Assembly: GCA_028873845.1 (NCBI GenBank)
Contig: JAPPNO010000114.1
Location: 1 to 39,364 of the forward strand
Direction: 5' to 3'
DNA from: Gemmatimonadota bacterium
GTDB lineage: Bacteria > Gemmatimonadota > Gemmatimonadetes > Longimicrobiales > Gaopeijiaceae
Length of the DNA: 39,364 bases
This document shows, piece after piece, positions 18,184-22,202 of this stretch. Every line of letters starts with the position of its first letter. Position 1 is the stretch's first letter. The notes under the pieces were generated by a model. It had not been told where the DNA came from. It was given only the letters and a program-made list of their open reading frames with translations, and searched no databases. Position numbers and translations under genes: made by a program.

Positions 18184-18373
18184 GGGCTCACCGCTCTTGA
18201 AGGATCTGAGGGCGTGGGGGGAGTGAACTCAATTCAACGCAGAGGATGCTCCGTGAATTTGCCAGGCGTGACAAATCGGGGGTCTCGTGGGCTCTTAGGA
18301 GTAGATGATCGTGTTCCCGGCGTTGCACGTCCGTCACCGCCAAGCGGGGCACACCAGTGAGGAGGTAGTAAGC

Positions 18374-18865
18374 ATGTCCCACGCGACAACCAGTAACCGC
18401 TTCAGCCTCAAGGTGATCGTGGCCTTCGCCCTCGTCATTTCGGCTGTCTGTTTCGCGAATCCGCTTTCCGCGCAGCCGCCCCCGGGCTCCACTGTCTGCT
18501 TCGAATGTGTGGATGGATGCGAGTCCGGCGACGGGGGGTGGGCGTGTGACTGGGCAGGGCCGGGGAGGCTGGGTGGTATCGAATGTCGGATGAATGGGGG
18601 ACCCCTCCCTGGATCCAAAGTTTGCTACTGCTATATCATGGGCGGGATCTGTGAAGGTGCCTCGGACGGGGAGGATTCGCTCCTGGCCGCACGGGAGGCT
18701 CTGGACGCGGTCGCACGGGGCAACCTGCTTCCCGCCGATGGACTTTTCTACGTTGCGACGAGAGGGGACGACTTGATGGTGCGAAGAAAGTGTGGGGGGG
18801 AGGCCATCGGTCGAATTGTGGTGGCCGAAGACGGTAGCCGATCAGTCGTTCCCGCCGTCGCATGA
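18374..18865 (+). CDS. Secreted Cys-rich protein of unknown function
   Basis: A 163-aa exported protein. The ATG at 18374 is preferred because a strong AGGAGGT lies just upstream. Residues 1-34 form a Sec signal peptide (VIVAFALVISAVCFANPLSAQ, split here as core and AQ cleavage end). The mature part has eight Cys in 52 residues (42, 45, 49, 58, 71, 84, 86, 93) spaced C-x2-C-x3-C-x8-C-x12-C-x12-C-x-C-x6-C, with many Gly and Trp, then an Ala-rich helix (LLAAREALDAVARGN), FYVATRGDDLMVRRKCGG with C140, and a short C-tail. An even set of eight suggests disulfides or metal binding. Twelve nt downstream begins a propeller-like exported protein, so the two are probably co-expressed. I recognise no family. 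Confidence 0.7.
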   Translation: MSHATTSNRFSLKVIVAFALVISAVCFANPLSAQPPPGSTVCFECVDGCESGDGGWACDWAGPGRLGGIECRMNGGPLPGSKVCYCYIMGGICEGASDGEDSLLAAREALDAVARGNLLPADGLFYVATRGDDLMVRRKCGGEAIGRIVVAEDGSRSVVPAVA

Positions 18866-18877
18866 CCCGGCCCGACC

Positions 18878-20116
18878 ATGACACCGCGAACCAGCCATGG
18901 GCTCGTCACCGCTGTCATGGCGCTGGCCTGTGAGACCGCACCAGCCGTAATCAACGAACCCGCCGGGACCTGGATCACCGAATCCGCCTTCGAGATCGGA
19001 GACGAGCTGGAGGGGGACGCACTTTTCACAAGAGTGGATCACGTACAGGTTTCGACCGATGGCCAGCGAGTCTTCGTCCTGGAAGGCGGCATCGAGCGCC
19101 TGACCGTCTGGACCCCGGGGGGTTCACTCGTCCAGGACGTGGGAGGGCCCGGTGACGGACCGGGTGAATTGATGGGTGCCAGGGAGATCGGACTGGTCCA
19201 GGACGGCTACTACGTTCGCGACTCCCGGCGCTTCACCTTCTTCACTCACAGCGGTGCGGTGGCCAGGACTGTCTCCTACCCTCCTCCCTCGGTGAGCTTC
19301 CACGGCTTCAGGATCGAACCTCGTCTACTGGTTGATGAGGGTCGCTTTCTCGGCGTTCCGGTAGTCCCGGCGCACGTCATGGCGGGTTGGCTGGGCGACG
19401 ATCCGATTCATGAACTGCCGGTGTTGGGTGTGTCGCGGGAACGTGACCGGTGGGGCGTGGATACGCTCCTTTTCCTGGATCTGAGAAACCGGGACCTGCA
19501 CGTTGGACCAGGTGACGCGTCGTTTGCCTGGGGTGTCCACTCACGCCAACCCTATCACGACGCCGACGAAAGGGATTTCGATCCAGGAACCGGCACCGTT
19601 GTGGTCCTGAAGAAGAATCGTGAACCGGGAAGCATCCGGCTCATGGAGCTGTCATCCGATGGCGACACGGTTTGGCAGCAGGATCTCTCGCGGCCGGTGG
19701 TCCCGTTCTCGCCGGAGGTTCTCGATGACCTCGTGGAGTGGCTGGTACAGGGATTGGTTGCGCAGACCCGGGGATCGGGATCGCCGCTCTCCCGTGGAGA
19801 CGCCCGCAAGGCGGTCGATGAGGCGCTCTACGTGCCTGATTTCTACCCGGCCGGGAATGTAGTGCGAGCCATGGTTTCCGGCGATGTGTGGTTCGAGACT
19901 TATGAGCAGTCGGGCGTGGACACGCTCGAGACCTGGTTTGCCCTGCGGAGGGGCGGGAACGAGTCCGGCCTGCGAAGAATACTGCTGCCCCTGGATTTTT
20001 CCCCCCATGCCGCGACCCATACGCACGTCTGGGGAATACGGCGCGACACCTTGGGAATCAACTTTGTGGTCGGGCGGCGTCTGGTGCGCCACGTACCAGA
20101 CAGAGCAGGCAATTGA
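18878..20116 (+). CDS. Propeller-like exported lipoprotein (paralogue A)
   Basis: A 412-aa protein whose N-terminus resembles a lipoprotein signal (VTAVMALAC, C18). It looks like a six-bladed beta-propeller: repeated strand motifs such as DHVQVSTDGQRVFVLEGG, RLTVWTPGGSLVQDVGGPG, GYYVRDSRRFTFFTHSGAV and a closing blade VSGDVWFETYEQSGVDTLETW. Such proteins with a GPGxGPGE-like turn are common in Bacteroidota and Gemmatimonadota and are mostly uncharacterised. It shares residues with the next gene throughout, including the C-terminal THTHVWGIRRDTLG and VVGRRLV. It begins 12 nt after the Cys-rich gene and overlaps the next start (TTGA). No catalytic motif seen. Fold assignment is by motif impression only. 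Confidence 0.65.
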   Translation: MTPRTSHGLVTAVMALACETAPAVINEPAGTWITESAFEIGDELEGDALFTRVDHVQVSTDGQRVFVLEGGIERLTVWTPGGSLVQDVGGPGDGPGELMGAREIGLVQDGYYVRDSRRFTFFTHSGAVARTVSYPPPSVSFHGFRIEPRLLVDEGRFLGVPVVPAHVMAGWLGDDPIHELPVLGVSRERDRWGVDTLLFLDLRNRDLHVGPGDASFAWGVHSRQPYHDADERDFDPGTGTVVVLKKNREPGSIRLMELSSDGDTVWQQDLSRPVVPFSPEVLDDLVEWLVQGLVAQTRGSGSPLSRGDARKAVDEALYVPDFYPAGNVVRAMVSGDVWFETYEQSGVDTLETWFALRRGGNESGLRRILLPLDFSPHAATHTHVWGIRRDTLGINFVVGRRLVRHVPDRAGN

Positions 20117-21378
20117 CCAGGCCAGGGGTCACCGCGCCGCGATCGCCTGGCCCGCCGCTCATATTCGCGGCGATCGGACTGGTCTTCGTGGCCGCTGCCC
20201 CGGTCAAGGCGGCCAATAGCCAGGAGTGGACCACGGCACCAGAGTATGAGATCGGCGGCGAACCCGCCGCCGGGGCGACACTTCGGCACCTGGGTCAGGT
20301 GCGCGTGAGCCGAGACGGCTCCCGGGTTTACGTGATCGAACGCCACAGATACGTGAGCGCAGTCGGCCGAGGTCCTCGGGTGACGGTCTGGTCGCCTGAC
20401 GGTTCGTTGCTCGTGGAGATCGGCCCGGAAGACGAGATCCGCCATTTAGGAGTCTCGCTGGGGATCCGACCCGCACCGACAGGCTTCTCGACCCGGCATG
20501 CCTCCCTGTTTGCGCATTTTTCACACGACGGACTACTGCTGGAGACCGTGGAGCACCCGCAACCGGACGTGGACGGAGTCAGCGTACTCGCGGTACTCGA
20601 TGACGGGACGTTCATCGGGTTGACCCGGGTCCCCCGGCCAAGTGTGAGGCTTGGCTGGGCGCGTGCCGAACCCGACACGGATGACCACCTGCTTCACGTC
20701 CTGCAAACGGAAGACGGTTGGAAGTGGGACACTATCGCCGATCTGGACAGGCGGAACCTTGTGATGGGTGTACGGGCCATTGGTGAATCCAGTCCGATTC
20801 CCACGGACCACTTTGCCGGGCAGCCGTTTTCCGACACCGACCTCTTCTACCTGGATCCGGATTCCGGCCTCGTCGGGATCGTGACCCGCAACAAAGCTCC
20901 CGGTGAGGTGGACCTCAACGAAATATCCATCCGTGGCGATACGACTTGGCAGCGGCACCTTGAACTGCCCTCCGTCCCAATCCCGGCCGAGGTACTTCAC
21001 GAGGCGGTTGAGGGTGTGGTGGAAAGCGTCCTCTCGGACCCGGCGGCGCCGGGGGACGCGTTGGCCAGGCTGCCGTTGGACACGCTGCGGCGCATGGTCC
21101 GGGATGCGCTTCACCGGCCCTCGCACCAGCCGCCCGTGACGCGCGCAATCGCAACCGTTTCCGGTGAGGTCTGGCTGCGGTCGGCAGAACACTCCGACAC
21201 GATGGTCGCCTGGTACTCCCTGCCGCGTGGAAACGTCACCGATCCGCCGAGGCGGATCCGGTTACCTGTTTGGTTTCGCCTTTCGGACGTGACGGACACC
21301 CACGTCTGGGGTATCCGCACGCATGAGGATGGAGCGGCCCAGGTTCTGGGACGCAGGCTGATCCCGACGGCGCGGTAG
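20113..21378 (+). CDS. Propeller-like exported protein (paralogue B)
   Basis: A 421-aa tandem paralogue of the preceding protein. The TTG at 20113 overlaps the upstream stop as TTGA and gives a signal-like N-terminus (LIFAAIGLVFVAAAPVKA) with no lipobox Cys, so this copy is probably soluble or processed while copy A is lipidated. Shared features with copy A: APEYEIGGEPAAGATLRHLG, QVRVSRDGSRVYVIE, RVTVWSPDGSLLVEIG, WQRHLELPSVPIPAEVLHEA, VSGEVWLRSAEHSDT and the ending TDTHVWGIRTHE..LGRRLIP. The paralogues are diverged (perhaps a third identical by eye), so the duplication is old. Function unknown; physical interaction with copy A or the Cys-rich protein is conjecture. Confidence 0.65.
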   Translation: MTRPGVTAPRSPGPPLIFAAIGLVFVAAAPVKAANSQEWTTAPEYEIGGEPAAGATLRHLGQVRVSRDGSRVYVIERHRYVSAVGRGPRVTVWSPDGSLLVEIGPEDEIRHLGVSLGIRPAPTGFSTRHASLFAHFSHDGLLLETVEHPQPDVDGVSVLAVLDDGTFIGLTRVPRPSVRLGWARAEPDTDDHLLHVLQTEDGWKWDTIADLDRRNLVMGVRAIGESSPIPTDHFAGQPFSDTDLFYLDPDSGLVGIVTRNKAPGEVDLNEISIRGDTTWQRHLELPSVPIPAEVLHEAVEGVVESVLSDPAAPGDALARLPLDTLRRMVRDALHRPSHQPPVTRAIATVSGEVWLRSAEHSDTMVAWYSLPRGNVTDPPRRIRLPVWFRLSDVTDTHVWGIRTHEDGAAQVLGRRLIPTAR

Positions 21379-21405
21379 GAAATGGGTGCTGGGGGGTGCC
21401 GTTCT

Positions 21406-21536
21406 CGGTGTCCACGGCAGCCAGGTCAGCAGTTGGCACCGAAAACCGCAACGGAGGTGTTGACCCTCCGAAAACGGTGCCGAATCGCCCGATTTCGCCC
21501 TCGTCGGACACCGGAAAGCCACTTTGTCGCAAAGTG
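21406..21536 (+). ncRNA. Candidate structured RNA / nested stem region
   Basis: Three nested complementary pairs plus one hairpin lie in this intergenic stretch: CGGTGTCC (21406-21413) with GGACACCG (21506-21513); GGCACCG (21436-21442) with CGGTGCC (21475-21481); CGGAGG (21452-21457) with CCTCCG (21465-21470); and CACTTTG (21520-21526) with CAAAGTG (21530-21536) around TCG. All are perfect. It follows the propeller pair and ends 84 nt before the ECF sigma gene, so it could be a 5' leader, a terminator complex or a small RNA. No known class recognised. Confidence 0.4.
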
Positions 21537-21620
21537 ACCCCCCATATCAGGCCGTCCCTGCATTTAAGAGGGTGAAGGCCGCGGAATAGCGGTCGAACGA
21601 GCATTGGATGGGAGGTTCCG

Positions 21621-22202
21621 ATGGTGTCGAAGGACGAGAGATGGGATCTGATGGCGAAGTGGTTGGCGGCCCACCGGCGAGCGATGCTCAAGGAGGCCAG
21701 GAGCCATGTGACTTGCTCGATGGCCGCCGAAGACATCGTCCAGGATGCGACAATTGTGGCCCTGAGGCGCTGCAGAAGCCTGAAACGTGGGGCGGCGGTG
21801 CGACCGTGGCTGCTGCGAATCACGGCGAGTGTGGCAAGGAAATCCATCGCGAAGCGCGCGCGACGCAGAGCACTTCGAGCGAAGCACATTGCTGCTGCGG
21901 TCGCACCTGTCGATCCGCTCCCGCCATCATCGGAGCCGGATCGGCCAATCGACCTGATCCTGGACGCCCTGGAATCCCTTCCGGAACTCCAGCGACGAAC
22001 CGTCCGCTGCCTGCTGGATGGCTTGTCCTACCGGGAGACGGCCGCCAGAATGGACAAGACACCGGGGGCCGTGAGGATGCTCCGCCAGCGGGCTGTGGAC
22101 AATCTTCGGCGGTTGCTGCGTCCCCCCCCCCGCAAGCGCAACACCGGCACCCGACCCCCTGGAGTCCAACAGCCAGCCTTCCGACCGCAGGAGACGACAT
22201 GA
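21621..22202 (+). CDS. ECF-type RNA polymerase sigma factor
   Basis: A 193-aa sigma-70-family factor with only regions 2 and 4. Region 2 covers about residues 20-75 (CSMAAEDIVQDATIVALRRC, then AVRPWLLRITASVARKSIAKR) and region 4 about 110-165 (ALESLPELQRRTVRCLLDGL, then LSYRETAARMDKTPGAVRML). GGAGGT at 21611-21616 precedes the ATG. The C-terminal tail after R167 is basic and Pro-rich and contains a C10 homopolymer. The stop overlaps the start of a secreted protein gene (ATGA); no anti-sigma gene is adjacent, which is unusual for ECF factors. Target promoters are unknown; the cotranscribed secreted protein and nearby exported proteins are candidates. Confidence 0.88.
   Translation: MVSKDERWDLMAKWLAAHRRAMLKEARSHVTCSMAAEDIVQDATIVALRRCRSLKRGAAVRPWLLRITASVARKSIAKRARRRALRAKHIAAAVAPVDPLPPSSEPDRPIDLILDALESLPELQRRTVRCLLDGLSYRETAARMDKTPGAVRMLRQRAVDNLRRLLRPPPRKRNTGTRPPGVQQPAFRPQETT
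22122..22131 (+). repeat. C10 homopolymer tract in sigma-factor gene
   Basis: Ten consecutive C encode P168-P170 and the first base of R171. Gain of one C, or a -1 slip, would join the sigma frame to the frame of the downstream secreted protein, which is open from here to 22870. Loss of one base would give a different tail. Confidence 0.85.

Follow-up and report, generated by a model that had tools for sequence, protein, structure and literature searches.

The locus analysed here raises the question of why a small, cysteine-rich exported protein is encoded directly ahead of two exported propeller-like proteins, and of what the three might do together. The window, that is the whole stretch of DNA analysed (39,364 nucleotides), encodes on the forward strand, in this order, the cysteine-rich protein CysR (18374-18865), propeller A (18878-20116) and propeller B (20113-21378). 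CysR is an open reading frame of 163 amino acids plus stop, with paralogues and orthologues; its ATG at 18374 lies 8 nt past a Shine-Dalgarno motif read in the sequence (AGGAGG, 18360-18365, forward strand) and its TGA is at 18863-18865. An alternative in-frame start, ATG at 18305 (186 aa), has no Shine-Dalgarno motif and brings no gain in signal peptide. Propeller A starts 12 nt downstream of CysR (ATG at 18878), and its TGA (20114-20116) overlaps the TTG start of propeller B (20113) by 4 nt. Individually, CysR, propeller A and propeller B have no significant match in Pfam or NCBIfam. The first-pass annotation had described the Shine-Dalgarno motif, the 12-nt spacing, the 4-nt overlap and a set of eight cysteines within 52 residues of CysR, and all of these details were recovered.

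Like the rest of its family, CysR is composed of a signal peptide, a Cys domain opening with CxxC and a C-terminal domain. Indeed (i) the signal peptide (residues 1-34; 18374-18475) ends in LSAQ and is recognised from the sequence, from a helix at residues 9-26 of the AF2 model and from alignment A4, (ii) the N-terminal Cys domain (residues 42-93, exactly 52 residues; 18497-18652) contains eight cysteines, the family having 6, 8 or 10, and is modelled with low confidence, and (iii) the C-terminal domain (18662-18862) is modelled as a helix (residues 99-114) plus four strands at a pLDDT of about 90 and contains a single conserved cysteine, residue 140 (codon 18791-18793). All 20 complete CysR proteins tabulated for the genus have an even number of cysteines in the N-terminal domain (6, 8 or 10; eight in the window) and exactly one in the C-terminal domain; a copy on contig C86, outside this 20-member table, has 7+1. 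Class-wide, the N-terminal number is even in 55 of 61 proteins and the C-terminal domain has exactly one cysteine in 50 of 61, the exceptions being mostly truncated proteins, or two proteins mis-split by the gap rule. This pattern would fit an N-terminal domain closed by disulfides plus one free thiol. One CysR subtype (L272, L278, L281, L282, L289, L292 and L293) has conserved cysteines and histidines (CGWC ... CxRCGGTSxCH ... GxCHIxCG) and may bind metal rather than form disulfides alone. Sequence searches of Pfam, NCBIfam and the PDB returned no relative of CysR, the structure search gave no Foldseek match below E 0.1 (best VIA Z 4.1), and no toxin fold or family was matched. The C-terminal domain was also considered as a homologue of a propeller blade, as its shape resembled a meander of four strands and Kelch blades were among its weak structural matches; this idea was rejected, profile-profile comparison having given nothing.

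For propeller A, a six-bladed fold of the NHL type is predicted with high confidence: the AF2 model, built on an alignment of 42 sequences, reached a pLDDT of 91.4 and a pTM of 0.88, and the nearest structures belong to six-bladed propellers of the NHL type (Brat, Z 14.8) and to BF0058, an exported propeller of Bacteroides fragilis (4raa, Z 14.2). Propeller B is 37% identical to propeller A and is assigned the propeller fold by homology only; the first-pass annotation, which had proposed propellers for both, is thus borne out for A by the AF2 model and the NHL matches, and for B only as a homologue of A. The Pfam family PF17170 (DUF5128) is matched by 29 of the 42 propellers of the A subfamily (best E 2.9e-8), and by neither propeller A nor propeller B. 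TolB_like (PF15869) gave 10.4 bits (E 0.41) for propeller A against a cut-off of 29.2, and was matched by three of 42 relatives (best E 0.018). With 72 matches to propeller A at E 0.01 in the window genome, the pair sits in a very large propeller expansion. Pseudogene-like propeller paralogues are also present in this genome, namely L046:1168-1473 on contig C16, with an internal deletion, L044:4752-5716 on C137, with a frameshift and a deletion, and L041:4900-6435 on C81, with an in-frame TAG. As several cassette genes are located at contig ends (C14, C23, C84, C86, C89, C100), assembly error is possible.

The signal peptide of propeller A ends in a lipobox-like MALAC (Cys18, codon 18929-18931), and most A propellers carry a lipobox and are predicted lipoproteins. 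Propeller B has a hydrophobic type-I signal peptide (residues 1-33) with an AxA-type site (APVKA/AN) and no lipobox. The combination of one lipoprotein-like and one soluble propeller, pointed out in the first-pass annotation, recurs by sequence in several genomes: the soluble B propellers of seven loci, the window included, form one clade (support 100/98) together with the B part of a fused protein of G017. In this last genome, A and B are joined in one open frame (L098:1138-3282, contig C6) and the B signal peptide is lost, the strongest indication that the two may work together. The tandem propellers of L079 and L099 arose from separate duplications, their second propeller being a predicted lipoprotein, and single-propeller cassettes are common. 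Apart from the lipobox, no cysteine is conserved in the propellers (alignment A3). A PADLOC scan of 42 propellers gave no match, which speaks against a link of the propellers to known anti-phage defence systems.

The genus was searched for CysR initially with a profile of five paralogues; with profile A4, CysR was found in 14 of 23 congeneric genomes, in one to six copies each. The congeneric records are MAGs from Gemmatimonadota, among them two chromosomes of Longimicrobiales, and some isolate names (RHO1 and COS4, for example) hint at a sponge origin like that of the samples of PMC8163846. For every one of the 28 CysR copies with a continuing contig (27 loci plus the window), a propeller lies directly next on the same strand; a 29th copy (C86) stands at a contig end and is outside this count. 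Propellers make up only about 2% of the window genome, and yet one follows CysR wherever this could be checked, far more often than chance would allow. In other genera and families, seven weaker matches were detected via the signal peptide and Cys part, and all are directly 5' of a propeller. With the wider profile A6, which took in some of these seven, 36 of the 365 class genomes (11 genera) were found to have divergent CysR relatives, and a second scan of 394 genomes of the phylum gave no match outside the class. Among 44 relatives examined class-wide, 36 precede a propeller, 34 recognised by HMM and two (at L273 and L104) by a GEGPEEF/GEGPGEF motif; several of the rest lie at the ends of contigs or of the fetched sequences, and L274, L288 and L296 may be genuine exceptions. 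Recurrence with propellers, which the first-pass annotation had set as a test of its proposal, is therefore what these genomes display, CysR being essentially never seen without one.

The reverse coupling is absent: some twenty close propellers have no CysR gene, so propeller A must have other roles. Among the distant propellers of the window genome, one more was found with a Cys-rich neighbour, then two more on contig C121. Decayed or truncated CysR genes stand before intact propellers in L100, in L102 and in a frameshifted copy of L084. As several cassette genes are located at contig ends (C14, C23, C84, C86, C89, C100), assembly error is possible. A single-sequence search with propeller A found nothing in congeneric contigs; the profile of alignment A5 did find relatives. 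A viral origin was considered and rejected, viral contigs having given no relative. The coupling of CysR to propellers is very probably real, old and specific, and the cassette, as judged from protein sequences and gene order, is one copy of a class-wide Gemmatimonadota gene module in which the fast-evolving CysR directly precedes one or two exported six-bladed propellers.

In the window, the cassette occupies an insertion site (18184-22198, forward strand) between the gene of a UvrD/PD-(D/E)XK helicase-nuclease and that of a conserved exported protein. At the junction following the UvrD/PD-(D/E)XK gene, about 12 congeneric genomes have no cassette and reach the next conserved gene within a few hundred bases, three (G014, G017, G024) carry a propeller alone, and G033 carries other genes and a related ECF gene. 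Being occupied in the window and empty in most relatives, the site points to the cassette as a presence/absence element at a fixed position; no integrase was seen. Besides the three cassette genes, the insert of the window encodes an ECF-type sigma factor (21621-22202, forward strand; Pfam Sigma70_r2 and r4_2), with a homologue, 77% identical, at the same site in G033. The 3' part of this gene contains a run of ten C (22122-22131), where slippage would alter the C-terminus, and the gene overlaps that of the next exported protein by ATGA (22199-22202). Elsewhere in the window genome (contig C94), a sigma-factor-like gene (L038:6547-7218), which judged by eye from its translation is unlike that of the window, lies 5' of another CysR cassette.

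The two domains of CysR evolve at different rates in three ortholog pairs, with dN/dS of 0.39-0.59 for the Cys domain versus 0.15-0.22 for the C-terminal domain. In the G012/G017 pair both values are low (0.19 and 0.12, respectively) and that of the Cys domain is not clearly the higher; a further pair was badly split into domains by the script. The propellers have dN/dS of 0.25-0.49, and values above 1 were never obtained. Distances between CysR proteins and between their propellers are correlated, with r slightly higher for the C-terminal domain (0.69) than for the Cys domain (0.65), and with r of 0.50 versus 0.38 when only distant pairs are considered; the cassettes therefore travel as units.

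Furthermore, a run of 8-15 G is present within 170 nt 5' of CysR in 9 of 63 copies, versus 1 of 68 control propellers without CysR (Fisher p 0.007, kinship being ignored and the control propellers all coming from the window genome). Eight of the nine tracts are located between TTGNNN and TANNNT, boxes assigned by consensus only, with a spacer of 16-20 nt; the ninth copy lies at the damaged end of contig C89. In a G031 relative, the tract is broken by an A and the TTGACA is perfect. The single chromosome of G033 has 53 runs of at least nine G on both strands, at least three of them just 5' of CysR genes. One tract of this genome (L272:1096-1110, near position 1840100 of contig C1) consists of fifteen G, immediately preceded by TTGACAGAAC and followed by ATAGACT; it lies about 80 nt 5' of the start of a divergent CysR (1191), where it marks a strong candidate phase-variable promoter. 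The CysR of the window has just GGGGG at a comparable place, so the poly-G property is absent from this copy; no recognisable sigma-70 promoter was found upstream of it, and a search for a sigma-54-like promoter 5' of CysR gave no consistent site. Tract lengths were compared between assemblies of different species, and poly-G phase variation is possible in some CysR relatives, that of the window excluded.

The reading that we prefer, a tentative one that falls somewhat short of probable, is that CysR could act as a ligand at the cell surface, diversifying and held in place by a propeller with a lipid anchor. In brief, CysR would be oxidised in the periplasm, where three to five disulfides would close its N-terminal domain, and its conserved C-terminal domain would dock on the lipid-anchored propeller A, and on B where present. 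The propeller would then hold or present CysR at the cell envelope and leave exposed a Cys domain that diversifies, and some copies, not that of the window, would be switched on and off by poly-G slippage between the -35-like and -10-like boxes. Such a system would most likely serve variable surface recognition, in adhesion or in the evasion of phage, predator or host.

An unlikely alternative is that the cassette encodes an effector and its immunity protein, CysR being a secreted, disulfide-rich antibacterial protein from which the lipoprotein propeller protects the producer, with orphan propellers as orphan immunity genes. Such pairs would account for the strict asymmetry of the coupling, for intact propellers behind decayed CysR genes and for the presence or absence of the cassette at its insertion site. 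However, CysR matches no toxin fold or family and is conserved at its C-terminal end and variable at its N-terminal end, the reverse of most polymorphic toxins; the cassette contains no secretion or lysis gene, and the propellers, without any PADLOC match, belong to a family that is very large in one genome (72 matches) and mostly lacks CysR.

Improbable, too, is a dedicated maturation or export system in which the propellers would fold, oxidise or cleave CysR or carry it across the envelope. The tight operon layout with its obligate partner, the occurrence of one predicted lipidated and one soluble propeller, sometimes fused, and the many cysteines of CysR with one odd one could all be read in this way, but the propellers have no conserved cysteine beyond the lipobox and belong to no recognised catalytic family, propeller B is dispensable given that single-propeller cassettes are common, and no substrate would exist for those close propellers that lack CysR. 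It is very improbable that the genes are operon neighbours without a functional tie, carried together by chance duplication. Large propeller families with tandem duplication do occur throughout these genomes, but in several families of the class the genes have stayed adjacent even though CysR itself can hardly be recognised any more, and the CysR C-terminal domain is under purifying selection and diverges in correlation with the propellers.

If CysR and its propeller are indeed a surface ligand and its holder, with phase variation of some copies, they would reveal the means of surface variation in uncultured Gemmatimonadota, several of which seem to be associated with sponges. A broader proposal, which we regard as doubtful, is that the cassettes represent a previously unrecognised surface recognition system throughout the class, sponge-symbiont-like lineages included, in which a disulfide-rich ligand with a conserved docking domain sits on a lipid-anchored propeller. 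Insertion sites would serve for the exchange of copies, and poly-G slippage would make some of them phase-variable; the system would be a counterpart of the NVEALA-propeller pairs of Bacteroidota. The CysR family, which has no Pfam or NCBIfam model and no solved relative, singles out one particular subset within a huge propeller expansion and offers a first functional handle on that subset. Were the preferred reading true, the layout of a small Cys protein with a propeller would become testable by a simple two-protein binding assay.

Several known systems resemble parts of this cassette. The Neisseria porA gene is a phase-variable surface gene with a homopolymer tract in its promoter spacer, and the G tracts of 8-15 in the TTGNNN/TANNNT spacer of eight CysR relatives are similarly placed, a feature that the window cassette lacks. 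In Bacteroidota, NVEALA (PF14055) proteins are small exported Cys proteins encoded adjoining exported six-bladed TolB_like (PF15869) propellers, and the function of these pairs is unsettled. The cassette is like them in having a small exported Cys-containing protein beside an exported six-bladed propeller, and differs from them in that CysR is a larger protein whose C-terminal domain is conserved, and propeller A is below the TolB_like cut-off. NVEALA had no match in the window genome, although a Bacteroides control matched, and CysR has no Pfam match; the likeness in layout but not in sequence drawn by the first-pass annotation agrees with these profile searches, in which neither CysR nor propeller A is a family member. 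The literature search returned no mention of NVEALA, and nothing on the CysR-propeller layout for DUF5128/PF17170 or for Gemmatimonadota propellers. With the PF17170 (DUF5128) and NHL propellers, the cassette shares the fold of the propeller A model and the PF17170 matches of most of its subfamily; unlike them, propellers A and B of the window give no match to PF17170, and theirs is the subfamily that is preceded by CysR.
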